The notes below the pieces were generated by a model, which was not told the DNA's origin, made no database searches, and saw nothing but the letters and a program-made list of their open reading frames with translations. The position numbers and the translations under genes are program-made. Below are positions 42,075-61,535 of a stretch of 64,000 bases of DNA, piece by piece. Positions within the stretch are counted from its first letter, which is position 1; each line of letters opens with the position of its first letter. Source of the DNA: Pedobacter arcticus A12 (GTDB lineage Bacteria > Bacteroidota > Bacteroidia > Sphingobacteriales > Sphingobacteriaceae); the NCBI RefSeq assembly GCF_000302595.1, contig NZ_JH947126.1, positions 525,223 to 589,222 on the forward strand, read 5' to 3'.

Positions 42075-43151
42075 TTAATCCGCAACAACCATTTTATCTA
42101 TATAATTCGAATTCATCATACCTAAAACTCCCATGTATTTAAGTTTAAAACTGATTAACCCTCCAACCTTATAGTTTTTCTCGTTTTGGCAAACATCCAC
42201 CACCAACATATCAGAACTTGCTTCAATAATTACAATATCTTCGTCATCAGCAATCAAATACGCCGGGTTACAGTCTAATAATCCGATGTCTAAAATAGCT
42301 CGGTAAGATTTTTTCCCATAATCTTCTTGCGGATAGCTAGGTGTTTCACCCGATACATTAAAGCCTTGGTTACCGTTGGGAATCTTTGGTTTTTCGTACA
42401 ACTCTATAATTTCTGCATAAAGTTTGAAAACATCATCGTTCATACCTACAATGGTTCGGTTGGTAAATAAATCCAGACCAAAAAACAACACCTCTCCTAC
42501 TCTAAAATGGTTAATCTGCTTGGGCAATTGCTCTTTGATCAGCAACGGTACGGTAACACTTGTACCACCAGAAACCCAAGGAATTTCGATATCAAACTTT
42601 GCTTCGATCAACTGTTTATAAAGGCAAAGCTGAATCAACTTATCCTGTGATGGCATTATCCCGTTAAGACAATTCAAATTTGTACCCAAACCCACAATAT
42701 TGATATTTGGCAAATGGATAATCTGCTCATAAAATTCCATCAGATGCTCTCCCACAACACCTTCACGTAAATCGCCCATCTCAATCATGATGATTATTTT
42801 ATGGACTTTCCCTTGCTTCACGCCTTCGTCGCTCAACATCTCAATCGTAAAATAGTCTGTATTAAAACTAACATCTGCAAATTTTATAATGCTAGAAATG
42901 CTACGTTTTGCGGGAGGCTTGATATAAACAGTTTGAGCATTTGGAGCTACCTGTTTAATCATCTTTAAATTACTGATGCGGGTATCATGAAACTCTTTAA
43001 CACCCAAACGTACCAATTCTTCTAGGTAAAGGCGGTTTCCACAAAGCACTTTAGAAACTACACCCCATTCAATTTCATTTTCTTTAAACCAACTTTGCAA
43101 CATATTATAGTTGTGTTGCAGTTTGCTTCTATATAAATTAATATAAGCCAT
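42075..43151 (-). CDS. Fold-type III PLP enzyme, alanine/ornithine-racemase-like
   Basis: 358 residues. An alanine-racemase N-terminal TIM barrel: IEWGVVSKVLCGNRLYLEELVRLGVKEFHDTRISNL gives PLP-lysine Lys34. MIEMGDLREGV, VGLGTNLNCLNGIMPSQDKL, IPWVSGGTSVTVPLL and FRVGEVLFFG follow in the order seen in ornithine-racemase-like proteins (Orr family). The C-terminal beta domain (about 240-355) is present. It could be an amino-acid racemase acting on ornithine, lysine or a related residue. Lone gene, so context does not identify the substrate. Not the cell-wall Alr: length and the C-terminal part differ. Confidence 0.75.
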   Translation of the reverse strand: MAYINLYRSKLQHNYNMLQSWFKENEIEWGVVSKVLCGNRLYLEELVRLGVKEFHDTRISNLKMIKQVAPNAQTVYIKPPAKRSISSIIKFADVSFNTDYFTIEMLSDEGVKQGKVHKIIIMIEMGDLREGVVGEHLMEFYEQIIHLPNINIVGLGTNLNCLNGIMPSQDKLIQLCLYKQLIEAKFDIEIPWVSGGTSVTVPLLIKEQLPKQINHFRVGEVLFFGLDLFTNRTIVGMNDDVFKLYAEIIELYEKPKIPNGNQGFNVSGETPSYPQEDYGKKSYRAILDIGLLDCNPAYLIADDEDIVIIEASSDMLVVDVCQNEKNYKVGGLISFKLKYMGVLGMMNSNYIDKMVVAD

Positions 43152-50123: not shown

Positions 50124-51314
50124 CTAAATATTTTGCGCAATAACAAAACCCGAAGCCCAAGCCCATTGGAAGTTATAGCCACCCAGCCAGCCTGTAACAT
50201 CCACACATTCGCCACCAAAAAACAAACCGGGCACTTTTTTAGCTTCTAAAGTTTTTGAGGAAAGTTCGTCCGTAGAAACACCTCCTCGCATCACCTCCGC
50301 TTTATCGTAACCTTTATCGCCCGCAGGCTTCACTTTGAAATGATGGATAAAGTTCTCAATAGTTGTAAAATCATCTTTACTCAAAGATGCCAGATTTTTT
50401 GGCGTCGGAATAAAATCTGCAATAGCATCTACAAATTTGCGGGTATAAAAATTACTCAAAAAAGTGGAAAGCTGTTTTTTTCCGTTGATGCTCCGCTCCT
50501 CTTCAATTAAATCCACAATATTCTGTTGAGGCAATAAATCAATAACGATACTATCTCCAGGCTTCCAATAAGACGATATCTGCAAAATAGCTGGTCCACT
50601 CAATCCCCAATGTGTAAAAAGAATATTTTCTTCAAAACTAATGTGAGGCAAAATCACGTTAGAGAAAATAGCATTCCCAGATAAGCCAGCAAAAAAGGCT
50701 TCCTCTTTCCCAGTTACAGTTAAAGGGACTAAAGCAGGGGCAGTTTTCTCTATTTTCAAACCGAAATTTTGCGCCACCTTTAACGCAAAATCCGTGGCTC
50801 CCATTTTTGCAATGGGTAAACCACCACTTGCCATTACTATACTTTTGGCCGAAACCGTTTGGATTTTCCCGTTTTTCTCGAACGTAATACCAAAACCGCT
50901 TTCTATTTGTTTAACCGATTTAACGTCGCTATCTAAGGAAATAGTTTGATCCAGTTGTTCGCATAAATCGGTAAATATATTTACAATGTCTTTTGCTTTA
51001 TTGGAGGTTGGGAATAGCTGACCTAAAGTTTTCTCTTGCCCAGTAATGCCATAAGTTTCAAAAAATGAAACAGAATCGTCCACCGTCCACTGTGACAAGG
51101 CCGATTTTGCGAAATGTTGGTTTGCAGAGATAAAATTCTTTGGTTCGGTATAAAGGTTAGTGTAATTACAACGCCCGCCACCAGAAATCAAAATTTTAGC
51201 ACCAACTTGGTTATTCTTTTCCAAAACTAAGGTGCGTTTACCTAAATAACCAGCCTGTACCGCACACATTAACCCACAAGCACCACCACCAATAATAACC
51301 GCGTCGTAATTCAT
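50124..51314 (-). CDS. HI0933/BaiN-family FAD-dependent oxidoreductase
   Basis: 396 residues. An N-terminal Rossmann FAD-binding motif IIGGGACGLMCAVQAGYLGKRTLVLEK is followed by the family-typical GAKILISGGGRCNYTN. QLFPTSNKAKDIVNIF and the C-terminal PAGDKGYDKAEVMRGGVSTDELSSKTLEAKKVPGLFFGGECVDVTGWLGGYNFQWAWASG complete the HI0933 pattern. The family includes the flavoprotein BaiN, but most members have no known substrate. ATG 51314 was chosen because residues upstream to 51341 precede the FAD motif without family match. It converges on rodA. Confidence 0.88.
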   Translation of the reverse strand: MNYDAVIIGGGACGLMCAVQAGYLGKRTLVLEKNNQVGAKILISGGGRCNYTNLYTEPKNFISANQHFAKSALSQWTVDDSVSFFETYGITGQEKTLGQLFPTSNKAKDIVNIFTDLCEQLDQTISLDSDVKSVKQIESGFGITFEKNGKIQTVSAKSIVMASGGLPIAKMGATDFALKVAQNFGLKIEKTAPALVPLTVTGKEEAFFAGLSGNAIFSNVILPHISFEENILFTHWGLSGPAILQISSYWKPGDSIVIDLLPQQNIVDLIEEERSINGKKQLSTFLSNFYTRKFVDAIADFIPTPKNLASLSKDDFTTIENFIHHFKVKPAGDKGYDKAEVMRGGVSTDELSSKTLEAKKVPGLFFGGECVDVTGWLGGYNFQWAWASGFVIAQNI

Positions 51315-57374: not shown

Positions 57375-57404
57375 AAGATAAAGGGATTAAACTCCCTTTA
57401 TCTT
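57375..57404 (-). terminator. trp operon terminator embedded in the trpA end
   Basis: On the minus strand AAGATAAAGGGA pairs with TCCCTTTATCTT (12 bp, perfect). The 6-base loop GTTTAA is the last Val codon and the TAA stop of trpA. The 5' arm is therefore coding sequence. Confidence 0.65.
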
Positions 57405-58163
57405 ACCTATAAATTCTGGAATGTGCGAAAGATAATCTTCCTTATTTCCGATAGTTTTCACAAAAGCAGTTCCCATAATTGCACCATCAACGTATTTGTT
57501 GGCTCTATCAAAACTGGCTTTATCAGAAATCCCGAAACCTATAATTAAAGGATTTTTGAGGTTCATTGCTTTTACCCTTTCGTAGTATTTACTTATTTTA
57601 TCTGATTGATCTAAATCTTTTCCGGTAGTTGCAGAAGAAGATAAAAGGTAAATAAAACCAGTTGAAAGCTCATCAATTTTACGGATACGTTCTTCGGAAG
57701 TATTTGGAGTAACCAAAAAGATATTGCTCAGTCCGTTTTTAATGAACTCATCTTTATACAATTCTTCATATTCGTACAAAGGCAAATCCGGAACAATAAT
57801 TCCATCTACACCAGCTTCTGCTACATCTTTACAAAAATTTGCTACCCCATATTGTAACATGGGGTTCACGTAACCCATCAATAAAATCGGAATACTAACC
57901 TGCGGACGTAAATCTTTCAATTGCTGAAAAAGCACTTTTAAAGTCATTCCGTTTTCGATAGATACCTGTGAGCTATGCTGTATGGTTGGTCCATCGGCCA
58001 CAGGATCTGAATACGGAAAACCGATTTCTAAAAAATCAGCTCCAGCTTTTTCTAAAGCCTGAGCAATCTTCAAAGTCGCTCCTATTTCCGGATAACCAGC
58101 TGTATAATAAATGGATAGTATATTTTCTTTCTTCTCTGTGAAGAGTTTTTTTAGTCTGTTCAT
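57387..58163 (-). CDS. trpA: Tryptophan synthase alpha subunit
   Basis: 258 residues. Cleaves indole-3-glycerol phosphate to indole, which passes to TrpB. GADFLEIGFPYSDPVADGPTIQ holds the catalytic Glu, and GVDGIIVPDLPLYEYEEL the catalytic Asp. LIIGFGISDKASFDRANKYVDGAIMGTAFVK is the phosphate-binding end. It is the last gene of the trp operon, 103 bases after trpB, and its coding end forms half of a terminator. Confidence 0.96.
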   Translation of the reverse strand: MNRLKKLFTEKKENILSIYYTAGYPEIGATLKIAQALEKAGADFLEIGFPYSDPVADGPTIQHSSQVSIENGMTLKVLFQQLKDLRPQVSIPILLMGYVNPMLQYGVANFCKDVAEAGVDGIIVPDLPLYEYEELYKDEFIKNGLSNIFLVTPNTSEERIRKIDELSTGFIYLLSSSATTGKDLDQSDKISKYYERVKAMNLKNPLIIGFGISDKASFDRANKYVDGAIMGTAFVKTIGNKEDYLSHIPEFIGKIKGV

Positions 58164-58266: not shown

Positions 58267-59448
58267 TTAAAGGTTAAAATATTTCATAAAAGTGTCCAGG
58301 TCTTTATCTCCCCTTCCGGAAAGGCAAACCACTACTACATCATCCTTTTTAAAAGTCATTTTCTCTAATTGTGCCAACGCATGAGCTGATTCAATGGCTG
58401 GAATAATCCCTTCCATTTTAGCCAATAACAAACTTGCTTGCATTGCCTCGTCATCCGTAATACTCACATATTCCACTCTTTTAACTTTATGTAAATGCGC
58501 ATGTTGAGGACCGATGCCAGGATAATCCAAACCTGCGGAAATCGAATATGGCTCTACTACCTGCCCATCATTAGTCTGCATTAAAATGGTACGTGAACCA
58601 TGCAGAACACCTTCTTTACCTAAAGCGGAAGTCGCAGCGGAATGTCCAGAATTCACACCCAAACCCGCAGCTTCAGCAGCAATTAGTTTTACATTTTCAT
58701 CATCCAAGAAATGATAAAACATTCCCATTGCATTACTTCCACCGCCTACACAAGCCAACACATAATTTGGTTGGTCGTTACCGGTATGCTCAATCAATTG
58801 CTTTTTTGTTTCTTCAGATATGATGGATTGAAACTTAGAAACCATTTCTGGATAAGGATGTGGACCAACCACAGACCCAATGATGTAATGGGTATCTTCT
58901 GGATTATTGATCCAGTCTCGCATGGCTTCGTTGGTGGCATCTTTTAGCGTTTTACTTCCAGAAGTTGCCGGAACAACCTTTGCGCCCATCATTTTCATAC
59001 GAGCAACATTTGGCGCTTGGCGCTCAATATCCACCTCGCCCATGTAAACCACGCATTCCAAACCTTTAAGCGCACAAACTGTTGCCGTTGCTACACCATG
59101 CTGACCAGCGCCAGTTTCGGCAATAATTCGCTTTTTACCTAGTTTTTCTGCGAGGATAATTTGACCAATGGTGTTGTTGATTTTATGTGCACCGGTATGG
59201 TTTAAATCTTCACGTTTCAGATAAATTTGCGCTCCGTATTTTTCTGATAAGCGTTGTGCTAAAAACAAAGGCGAAGGGCGACCCACGTAATCTTTCATCA
59301 AAGAATCAAACTCTGCTTTAAATTCAGGAAGGGCAATAATATCCAAATATTTGGTTCTTAATTCCTCCACGTTAGGATATAGCATTTCGGGAATGTATGC
59401 ACCTCCGAAATCTCCATAATATCCTCTATCATCAATTCTATAATTCAT
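58267..59448 (-). CDS. trpB: Tryptophan synthase beta subunit
   Basis: 393 residues, TrpB1 type. Joins indole to serine with PLP. The PLP lysine is Lys89 in [36 protein letters not shown] and [15 protein letters not shown] (phosphate loop) match the family. It starts 3 bases upstream of nothing and follows trpF by 3 bases, a tight operon spacing. Start at ATG 59448. Confidence 0.97.
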
Positions 59449-59451
59449 TTT

Positions 59452-60084
59452 CTATCTTTTTAATTTTTTAAATGCTGTTTCCAGCTTCTCCATATCTTTT
59501 AATCCGGGTTCAATCTCGAACTTCGAATTTATGTCAATTCCATAAAACTGCGGATGGTTTAAAGTTAAAACTTCGTCGAGGTTTTCTAAGCTAATTCCTC
59601 CGCTCAGCATAAACGGTTTTTCTAGTTGATAATTCTCCAAGAGTTGCCATCGGAAAGTCCTTCCACTTCCGCCGTGTTGCTCAGTTTTTGTATCGAACAA
59701 AAATAAGTCAACGTTGTTTTGGTAAGGGTTTAAAATACTAAAATCAAAAGCATCGTCTACACCAAAAGCTTTTATTGTAAAAAAACCTGCGTCTTTTACC
59801 TGTTGGCAAAATTCCGGACTTTCACTTCCTTGAAGCTGGATGGCTTGCATTCCATAAACCTTGGCAAACTCGATTACTTCATCAATTGTAGCGTTGACAA
59901 AAACCGCGGTTTTAATAATTTCTTTATCGACAGCGTTTAGGTGATTTCTTTCCAGCTCCAATCCTATAAATCTTTTGGATGGCGGATAAAATATAAAACC
60001 CATTAAGTTCGGTTTTAAATCAGAAACCGCTTTTATATTTTCGGGGATTTTCATCCCACATACTTTAATTTTTAAATCGCTCAT
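59452..60084 (-). CDS. trpF: Phosphoribosylanthranilate isomerase
   Basis: 210 residues, a TIM barrel. KVCGMK holds the catalytic Cys, QLQGSESPEFC the middle strand, PFMLSGGISLENLDEVL the phosphate loop and YGIDINSKFEIEPGLKDMEKL the catalytic Asp and C-terminal loop. It isomerises PRA to CdRP. Its start overlaps the trpD stop by one base, and trpB follows 3 bases on. The indole-glycerol-phosphate synthase gene trpC, often fused or next to trpF, is missing here. Confidence 0.94.
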   Translation of the reverse strand: MSDLKIKVCGMKIPENIKAVSDLKPNLMGFIFYPPSKRFIGLELERNHLNAVDKEIIKTAVFVNATIDEVIEFAKVYGMQAIQLQGSESPEFCQQVKDAGFFTIKAFGVDDAFDFSILNPYQNNVDLFLFDTKTEQHGGSGRTFRWQLLENYQLEKPFMLSGGISLENLDEVLTLNHPQFYGIDINSKFEIEPGLKDMEKLETAFKKLKR

Positions 60085-61079
60085 TATTTTACCTGTAATA
60101 AAGAAGTAAAAGACGACTTCGCTTTGCCAGATAGAAGCGATTGTTCAGCTTCGTAAAAACAATCTGCAAAGGATTTATCCGGATTAATGGTTTGGATAGC
60201 CAGTGCGGCGTTACAGAGTACCACGTTATTTTGGTTAACGGTTGCTTTATTATCTAAAACTTCCATAAATATTTTTGCAGAATCTTCAACCGTTGACCCA
60301 CCTTTAATCGTGTCAGCATCAATCTTCTCGAAACCTAAAAGCTTCAAATCATTCATTTTTTCGCCTTTGTTAGAGAAAGTTTTGAAATTACAAGTCAGTG
60401 AAACCTCATCATAACCTTCTAAAGCGTGAAGAATGGTATAATTACTATTAGAGTTTTGGTATAAATATGCGTAAAGCCTTGCAAGCTCTAAACTAAAAAC
60501 ACCCACCAATTGGTTTTGTGGATTTGCCGGGTTAGACATTGGACCTAACATATTGAAGAACGTTTTTACGCCCAACTCTCTACGAATTGGAGCAACATTT
60601 TTCATCGCCGGATGAAAAAGCGGTGCATGTAAAAAGCAAATCCCTGCTTTATCCAAAGATTGCTTCAATAAACCTTCGTTATTCGTAAAAGTATAGCCCA
60701 AAAACTCCATTACGTTGGATGAACCACAACCGGAGGAAACGCCATAATTACCATGTTTGGCTACATGATATCCAGCTCCTGCTACTACAAAAGATGCCAG
60801 AGTAGAAATGTTAAAAGTATCTTTTCCATCGCCACCAGTTCCGCATAAATCCACCAAATTAAAGTCTGAGTTTAAGCTGATAGGTAAACAAAGTTCTAAC
60901 ATGGCTTCTCGGAAACCCTGAAGTTCTTCTACGGTGATATTCCGCATGCAATAAGCCGTCATAAAAGCAGCCATTTGCGACGTGTTGTATTTACCTGATG
61001 ATATATTAGTCAGAATTTCTTTAGATTCTGCTTGGCTGAATGTTTTATGTTCAAATAAGTGATTTAAAATCGCTTTCAT
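60084..61079 (-). CDS. trpD: Anthranilate phosphoribosyltransferase
   Basis: 331 residues. Transfers phosphoribose from PRPP to anthranilate. DLCGTGGDGKDTFNISTLASFVVAGAGYHVAKHGNYGVSSGCGSSNVMEFLG is the PRPP and anthranilate binding region with the GTGGD and KHGN motifs. GPMSNPANPQNQLVGVFSLELARLYA follows in order. It is the first structural gene after the attenuator, whose terminator hairpin lies 26 bases upstream of the ATG. Confidence 0.96.
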   Translation of the reverse strand: MKAILNHLFEHKTFSQAESKEILTNISSGKYNTSQMAAFMTAYCMRNITVEELQGFREAMLELCLPISLNSDFNLVDLCGTGGDGKDTFNISTLASFVVAGAGYHVAKHGNYGVSSGCGSSNVMEFLGYTFTNNEGLLKQSLDKAGICFLHAPLFHPAMKNVAPIRRELGVKTFFNMLGPMSNPANPQNQLVGVFSLELARLYAYLYQNSNSNYTILHALEGYDEVSLTCNFKTFSNKGEKMNDLKLLGFEKIDADTIKGGSTVEDSAKIFMEVLDNKATVNQNNVVLCNAALAIQTINPDKSFADCFYEAEQSLLSGKAKSSFTSLLQVK

Positions 61080-61097: not shown

Positions 61098-61127
61098 AAA
61101 AAAAGGGTCACCACCTGGCAACCCTCT
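61098..61127 (-). terminator. trp attenuator terminator
   Basis: On the minus strand GGGTTGCC-AGGT-GGTGACCC (61124-61105) forms an 8-bp stem, with two G-U type pairs, and is followed by seven T (61104-61098). It stands between the leader peptide and trpD, with no other gene upstream to terminate, so its role is attenuation. Confidence 0.85.
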
Positions 61128-61155
61128 TATGTATCTATTTAAAAATATAAAATAT

Positions 61156-61163
61156 GGTTTGCC
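61156..61163 (-). promoter_or_regulatory. trp antiterminator arm
   Basis: GGCAAACC begins on the base after the leader-peptide stop codon. It can pair with GGTTGCC (61123-61117), the 5' arm of the terminator, over seven pairs with one bulged A. If it does, the terminator cannot form. A ribosome sitting at the stop codon would cover it; one stalled at the Trp codons would leave it free. Confidence 0.7.
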
Positions 61164-61217
61164 CTACGAATTTTCGTAATGCCACCACCAAATTGTATTT
61201 ATATTTATTCTTATCAT
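61164..61217 (-). CDS. trpL: trp operon leader peptide
   Basis: Seventeen codons, MIRININTIWWWHYENS, then TAG. Three consecutive TGG codons (61190-61182) sit at positions 10-12, a very unlikely run by chance and located exactly upstream of the attenuator. A short stem, TACGA-AAAT-TCGTA, covers the last codons and stop as a candidate pause hairpin. A CATATTTG (61236-61229) near the start matches 7 of 8 bases of the -7 consensus, so the leader RNA may begin only a few bases before the ATG. It senses charged tRNA-Trp by ribosome stalling. Confidence 0.85.
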   Translation of the reverse strand: MIRININTIWWWHYENS

Positions 61218-61535
61218 TTTCTGTGTAGCAAATATGGCGATTTTTTAAATATCTAAAAAATTAAAAGCGAAATTATTATACTCTTCAGTCTAAAATACTA
61301 TCCTGCCAGCCTATGTATAATGGTTATACTGGGAAGTTATGGAAAGTCGATTTATTGGCTAACCTTCCAATTTCATACTTTCAAAATGGAAAGATATCCT
61401 ATCAAAATGGAAAGGTAACAAAAAATAGAAACACCATAAATGAATACATAAATCTGATTAACAACTACTTAACACACGTGTAAACGATATGGTATTTCGA
61501 TTGTATATCTATTTAAAATTTTAAATACAATAGTC
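61218..61535. other. Region upstream of the trp leader with 13-bp direct repeats
   Basis: TCAAAATGGAAAG occurs twice (61381-61393 and 61402-61414), 21 bases apart, i.e. two turns of DNA, in an otherwise A/T-rich, gene-free stretch. A nearby CTTCCAATTTC is a partial reverse copy. The repeats could bind a regulator of the trp leader or of the small membrane protein on the other side. Confidence 0.4.

Follow-up and report, generated by a model that had tools for sequence, protein, structure and literature searches.

The leader in front of the trpDFBA genes of Pedobacter arcticus A12 is, with a probability of about 93%, a ribosome-mediated transcription attenuator of the Bacteroid-trp family, judged from its sequence, its relatives and modelled RNA folding. 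It is a further case of that known family and not new in kind. The same genome appears to carry a second, unlinked attenuator before trpE. Three things go beyond the known device: the trpE attenuator, which a search with the RF01692 model did not report; a broader model of the leader; and promoter-like boxes close to the start of the leader. Coordinates without a contig name refer to the window, the whole stretch of 64,000 nucleotides that was analysed.

Parts of the trpD Leader

All parts lie on the minus strand. The leader peptide is encoded by MIRININTIWWWHYENS, an open reading frame of 17 codons that occupies 61217-61164, stop included, with its ATG at 61217 and its TAG at 61166-61164. Three consecutive TGG codons for tryptophan (TGGTGGTGG, 61190-61182) form arm 1, which can pair with arm 2 if no ribosome is present. 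A small covarying hairpin, UUACGA AAAU UCGUAG (61164..61179), separates the Trp codons from arm 2. Arm 2 (GGCAAACC, 61163-61156), the 5' half of the antiterminator, starts at the base after the TAG. Arm 3 (GGGTTGCC, 61124-61117) is common to the antiterminator and the terminator. It is separated by the loop AGGT from arm 4 (GGTGACCC, 61112-61105), the 3' half of the terminator, and seven T follow (61104-61098). The terminator with its T run thus takes up 61124-61098, just before the trpD ATG at 61079. No Shine-Dalgarno sequence is seen before the leader.

The sequence-only reading had proposed, from pairings made by hand, a 17-residue leader with three consecutive TGG codons, an antiterminator arm directly after its stop codon and a terminator with seven T just before trpD. 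All three are confirmed, and its pairings and coordinates were right apart from one refinement. By eye, the duplex of GGCAAACC with GGGTTGCC is made of GGCAA/UUGCC and CC/GG and has a single A-G mismatch; it is worth -10.9 kcal/mol.

The whole element folds better than any of 200 shuffled versions (0/200 equally good, z -3.71). A simple terminator scan also picks a terminator-like site at 61128-61101, before trpD. By itself this match is not significant, since the surrounding 5 kb hold 3 such sites against 3.7 in shuffles, which is no excess.

The genes after the attenuator follow in the order trpD, trpF, trpB, trpA, all on the minus strand. The first, trpD (60084..61079), matches NCBIfam TIGR01245 with 296.3 bits (cut-off 199.05). 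The best matches of trpF (59452..60084) are phosphoribosylanthranilate isomerase models, below their curated cut-offs. Both trpB (58267..59448; TIGR00263) and trpA (57387..58163; TIGR00262) score above the cut-offs of their models.

Relationship to a Known RNA Family

We take the Bacteroid-trp family, RF01692, to be defined by a short open reading frame with two or more UGG codons. The trpD leader has a short frame with at least two UGG codons, these regulatory codons form a run, and the element stands before tryptophan biosynthesis genes in a member of the Bacteroidota. In a covariance-model search it matches RF01692 at 61117..61237 on the minus strand with 54.7 bits, above the gathering score of 49, and over the full length of the model (1-131 of 131). 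Nine matches were listed between 60900 and 61600, and the only one to attain its gathering score was that to RF01692; none to a T-box or another Rfam leader did so. The other eight were far below theirs and were rejected.

The model and the element share a full-length match, a place among Bacteroidota Trp leader RNAs and the stem between the Trp codons and the arm that follows the stop codon. As aligned here, however, the model ends within arm 3 and draws the 1:2 stem only; terminator and antiterminator are absent from it.

The family is catalogued as the "Bacteroidete tryptophan peptide leader RNA" and goes back to Weinberg et al. 2010 (PMC2864571), where the row for Bacteroid-trp in Table 1 gives RNA y, cis-reg y and Bacteroidetes. 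For Flavobacterium psychrophilum, a member of the same phylum, a paper of 2021 gave strong clues that leader peptides ahead of amino-acid operons act in attenuation, and it reported structured 5' elements for pheA and hisG (PMC9723704). That evidence comes from a transcriptome, unlike the evidence here, and the word 'trp' is absent from the main text of the paper. An earlier hint that an attenuator would be unexpected in Bacteroidota is not supported, given the Rfam entry, the 2010 paper and the F. psychrophilum clues. No literature was found that links ribosome-mediated attenuation or transcription-translation coupling with Bacteroidota leader peptides; wording varies in such texts, so this is weak evidence of absence.

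Conservation among Relatives

The best 80 of 586 trpD relatives were taken (loci L012-L091). The closest TrpD among them is that of Pelobium manganitolerans (88%). A TrpG-like motif occurs within 900 nt before trpD in 26 of the 28 loci L064-L091 and in none of the 52 loci L012-L063. Each of those 52 has a Trp-rich leader before trpD, within 420 nt in 50 of them and about 490-500 nt upstream in L022 and L026. Their names are Pelobium, Pedobacter, Mucilaginibacter and Pararcticibacter, or they come from MAGs. Loci L064-L091 show no such leader in the 500 nt before trpD. Two of them, L069 (named Sphingobacteriaceae) and L077 (Xanthocytophaga), have neither motif nor leader there. Short Trp-containing frames about 300-440 nt upstream in L072 and L073, where a TrpG-like motif is also present, look like chance.

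The Trp-rich leader is therefore found in 52 of the 54 fetched trpD loci that lack a TrpG-like sequence just upstream. The sequence-only reading had named the absence of Trp codons and paired arms from related genomes as grounds for giving it up, and it survived this comparison.

Pairing, covariation, folding and promoter boxes were counted in 51 leaders, that of the window and those of 50 relatives, with L022 and L026 left out. Each was taken to start at the farthest ATG in frame within 60 nt. Three Trp codons are present in 49 of these leaders and two in the other 2.

Pairing and Covariation of the Arms

Across the 51 leaders, the native duplex of arm 2 with arm 3 ranges from -8.7 to -15.9 kcal/mol (mean -11.7), against a mean of -4.9 for shuffled arm 2. 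In every leader (51/51) the native arm 2 lies below the 5th percentile of its own shuffles. Alignments made with MAFFT shift arm 2 between clades; the pairing was therefore counted per sequence.

Arm 3 is nearly fixed and pairs with both of its partners. Two positions of arm 3 are occupied by G or A, and there the 43 distinct arm combinations have C-G, U-G or U-A in the antiterminator. The matching positions of the 42 distinct terminators have G-C, A-U or, at one of them, G-U. The small hairpin after the Trp codons also varies in step: ACGA/UCGU in the window stands as ACGC/GCGU in some Pedobacter relatives, and CAU/AUG alternates with CAC/GUG among leaders. Swapping arm 2 among relatives costs a mean of only 0.9 kcal/mol (-10.7 versus -11.7), which indicates that most relatives share their arms by descent. 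The covariation accordingly rests on a few clade-level changes.

Folding Model and Proposed Mechanism

Escherichia coli trpL consists of tandem Trp codons, arms 1-4 and a terminator ahead of the first structural gene, and the operon it serves begins with trpE. The P. arcticus leader shares the codons, the arms and the place of the terminator. It differs in that trpD comes first, the transcript is predicted to be near-leaderless, the box upstream resembles that of sigma-ABfr, and no Shine-Dalgarno sequence is seen.

In the proposed mechanism, when charged Trp-tRNA is scarce, the ribosome would stall on the three TGG codons and leave arm 2 free. Arm 2 would then pair with arm 3, the terminator would be blocked, and RNA polymerase would proceed into trpD. 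With ample charged Trp-tRNA, it is the TAG that the ribosome would reach, where it would cover arm 2, arm 3 would pair with arm 4, and transcription would stop near 61098. If the leader is not translated at all, arm 1 could hold arm 2, and the terminator would form as well. Computation shows the parts, their conservation, some covariation and, in a folding model, pairing that depends on the state of the ribosome; that the leader is translated, that ribosomes stall on it and are coupled to the polymerase, and that transcripts end early is inferred.

A state model was used to follow the pairing. Only ribosome-free RNA was folded, on the assumption that the front edge of the ribosome is 16 nt away from the P site's first base. 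An antiterminator was counted as formed from 4 expected pairs upward. At the moment when arm 3 has emerged, all 51 leaders form it if a ribosome occupies W1, W2 or W3; 2 of 51 do so if the ribosome has moved on to the stop codon, and 19 of 51 if there is no ribosome. Under this assumed footprint, geometry and model agree that arm 2 is masked by a ribosome at the stop codon and is not masked by one at the Trp codons. Once arm 4 is transcribed, equilibrium favours the terminator, again with 4 or more expected pairs, in 50 or 51 leaders out of 51, whatever the state of the ribosome. The switch must therefore be kinetic and be decided before arm 4 is made. Other attenuators are also thought to decide before the 3' half of the terminator exists.

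By computation, the antiterminator and the intrinsic terminator are mutually exclusive. The sequence-only reading had held that the arm after the stop codon and the 5' half of the terminator exclude each other, and duplex energies, covariation and the folding model bear this out. Its general reading of the geometry, as that of ribosome-mediated attenuation, is supported by the sequence, the relatives and the same model.

The Trp Codon Run in the Genome

The run TGGTGGTGG is common in the genome, with 97 copies against 83 for a reversed control pattern, and was rejected as evidence when taken alone. All 97 copies were examined. They gave 21 rows inside a mechanically defined reading frame of at most 45 codons, and a terminator-like hairpin follows in 2 of the 21, the trpD leader and the trpE leader. 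Two further copies lie in the 64-kb window, at 42197-42205 and at 51283-51291 on the minus strand. Both are in short mechanical frames, and no terminator-like hairpin was found after either.

Other Explanations

The leader could be a plain, constitutive terminator with a Trp-rich frame beside it by chance, and the frequency of TGGTGGTGG and of terminator-like sites, which are no commoner here than in shuffles, would allow for that. This is hardly credible when 52 loci preserve the frame and the arms in the same order, when a promoter-like box stands 5-16 nt before the leader frame in 51 of the 51 tested, and when only 2 of 97 runs combine a short frame with a terminator-like hairpin, both before trp genes. 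A regulated alternative is nascent-peptide arrest, in which the WWW peptide, like TnaC, would sense free tryptophan in the ribosome tunnel and not charged tRNA. A short frame adjoining a conditional terminator would suit such a device, and certain residues next to the Trp codons appear repeatedly (NNNWWWLNE, WWWHNA). Across the 51 leaders, however, the Trp run is almost constant and the rest of the peptide mostly variable, and the residues that recur downstream of the run overlap with the hairpin that covaries. TnaC logic is also the reverse of switching on biosynthesis by lack of tryptophan, and biosynthetic genes should turn on without it. Arrest of this kind is accordingly very improbable.

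Attenuation by a translating ribosome might be joined by a further role, in which the terminated leader RNA or its peptide acts in trans, like rnTrpL and peTrpL of Sinorhizobium meliloti. In that organism, which belongs to another phylum, the trp genes are split and the leader transcript starts at the leader ATG, as is predicted, nearly, for P. arcticus; the published account (PMC7298713) places the attenuator at trpE(G) and has its RNA act in trans on the trpDC mRNA, whereas trpD of P. arcticus has its own attenuator. The likeness speaks for such a role, but most of the leader peptide is not conserved. A trans role is unlikely, though less so than the two explanations above.

A Probable Second Attenuator before trpE

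The trpE and trpC genes lie on another contig (C4) of the same genome, and the trpE attenuator is thus unlinked to that of trpD. Near 527715-527884 of that contig stands the leader MNNKNNTNRWWWQGKNLASATVFVY, followed by AACCCGACG-CTAACC-CGTCGGGTT and a T run. Its fold has a z of -3.15, with 1 of 200 shuffles as good. The RF01692 search of the genome, in which 150 of 1213 candidates were scored, reported only the trpD element and not this one. Between trpE and a trpG-like frame there is a frame of 98 codons that by eye resembles chorismate mutase (L009 2373-2669).

Leaders before trpE were read in 29 of 30 loci (L122-L151), which are the best-scoring places and not all of them; L130 has no clear start. 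In three of the 29, the start was set by GTG or by choice of box. All 29 have at least two Trp codons, and 21 have WWW. The arm core is UCGG/CCGA in many and CCGG/CCGG in others, with a long perfect GCGUCGGGCU/AGCCCGACGU in L148. The pairing passes a 5% shuffle test in 14 of 29, and P. arcticus itself fails it (0.125).

Thirteen further trpE regions were read, ten of them outside the host's family (two from one genome) and three inside (L152, L153, L164). All 13 have a terminator-like hairpin. By eye, two Trp codons are adjacent or one codon apart in 10, counting L159 and L164, whose starts are uncertain. The two Trp codons of L153 are far apart, and L155 and L162 have one each. By a crude test, the arm pairing passes at 5% in 6 of the 13, and in 3 of the 10 outside the family. 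In the trpE leader of L152 (G021), MNNKNTNIFAWWRCNN, the arms are of a wholly different sequence, UGCGAC and GUCGCA, and nevertheless match. Two other trpE leaders, L229 and L230 (G061 and G072), were seen to share this arm type and the same layout.

A Broader Model

Model R1 was built from the 51 trpD leaders, and its structure holds the terminator's 10 pairs only. At E <= 0.001 with strict filters it matches 70 relatives out of 120: 58 of the 73 in the host's family and 12 of the 47 outside it. RF01692 at the same threshold and filters matches 7 of 120, all in the host's family (7/73), and 4 of these are above its cut-off. The gain within the family is expected, since R1 was built from that family. 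A comparison of positions puts the best R1 match away from trpE in 27 of the 29 genomes with a trpE leader.

In P. arcticus, R1 also matches contig C4 at 520024-520165. This candidate for a third attenuator was rejected, being by eye the 3' end of a gene with its terminator. Seven other extra matches were read, and five (L229, L230, L232, L234, L235) are trpE leaders. The other two, L231 and L233, are not trp leaders, which means that weak R1 matches, above all the 12 outside the host's family, include matches by chance.

Predicted Near-Leaderless Starts and Promoter-Like Boxes

A promoter-like -7 element, CATATTTG, of the sigma-ABfr type TAnnTTTG with C at -12, lies at 61229..61236 on the minus strand. 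The box is 11 nt 5' of the trpD-leader ATG, so that a 5' UTR of about 6-7 nt is predicted. In all 51 leaders AT.TTTG ends 5-16 nt before the leader ATG, as against 0 of 51 at trpD ATGs and 0.9% of shuffles; the leaders are related by descent and are not independent cases. The position of the box implies 5' UTRs of about 0-12 nt. By a 4-nt rule the predicted median is 6 nt; 47 of the 51 UTRs would be no longer than 10 nt, and 7 no longer than 2 nt. Each of the 29 trpE leaders has a TTTG box whose end is 4-10 nt from the chosen start, and 27 of the boxes are TAnnTTTG; the shuffle comparison covers the trpD boxes. Some of the trpE starts were chosen for the best box, and the trpD starts as the farthest ATG, so that the distances in both sets lean short.

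In Flavobacterium johnsoniae the last base of the box is at -5, the distance to the start site is 4 or 5 nt in probable promoters, and leaders longer than 10 nt are found on 87% of transcripts (PMC6847099). In Bacteroides thetaiotaomicron about 3.7% of 5' UTRs are shorter than 10 nt (PMC7366714), and leaderless mRNAs make up 5.5% in F. psychrophilum (PMC9723704). A trp leader RNA that starts at its ATG is already known from Sinorhizobium (PMC7298713). No description of near-leaderless trp leaders in Bacteroidota was found in the literature searched.

The chances are roughly even that, in much of the host's family, trpDFBA and trpE-(mutase-like ORF)-trpG-trpC each have an attenuator of their own, with both leader frames translated from almost leaderless messages that have no conserved Shine-Dalgarno sequence. 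On such messages the ribosome would have to load at a start codon about 0-12 nt from the 5' end, and early enough to match the polymerase. If so, dual near-leaderless attenuators would be genetic evidence for close coupling of transcription and translation in a phylum largely without Shine-Dalgarno signals. The trp attenuators offer a simple reporter for such coupling in Bacteroidota, which can be addressed codon by codon.

Two other biosynthetic genes of P. arcticus are also preceded by short frames. A His-rich one, MKLILTPTHHLHHR, stands before hisG on contig C2 near 227.7 kb (L226 1225-1269). It differs from the trp leaders in that it starts 41 nt after its box, TATATTTG, and by eye no clear intrinsic terminator follows. 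Before pheA, on contig C3 near 473.3 kb (L227 1354-1483), there is a Phe/Tyr-rich leader, MNTNTTYYFGYFYFRNKSRVSMS, with a hairpin AACCCGGC..GCCGGGTT and a T run; a TACATTTG box lies 14 nt before its ATG.
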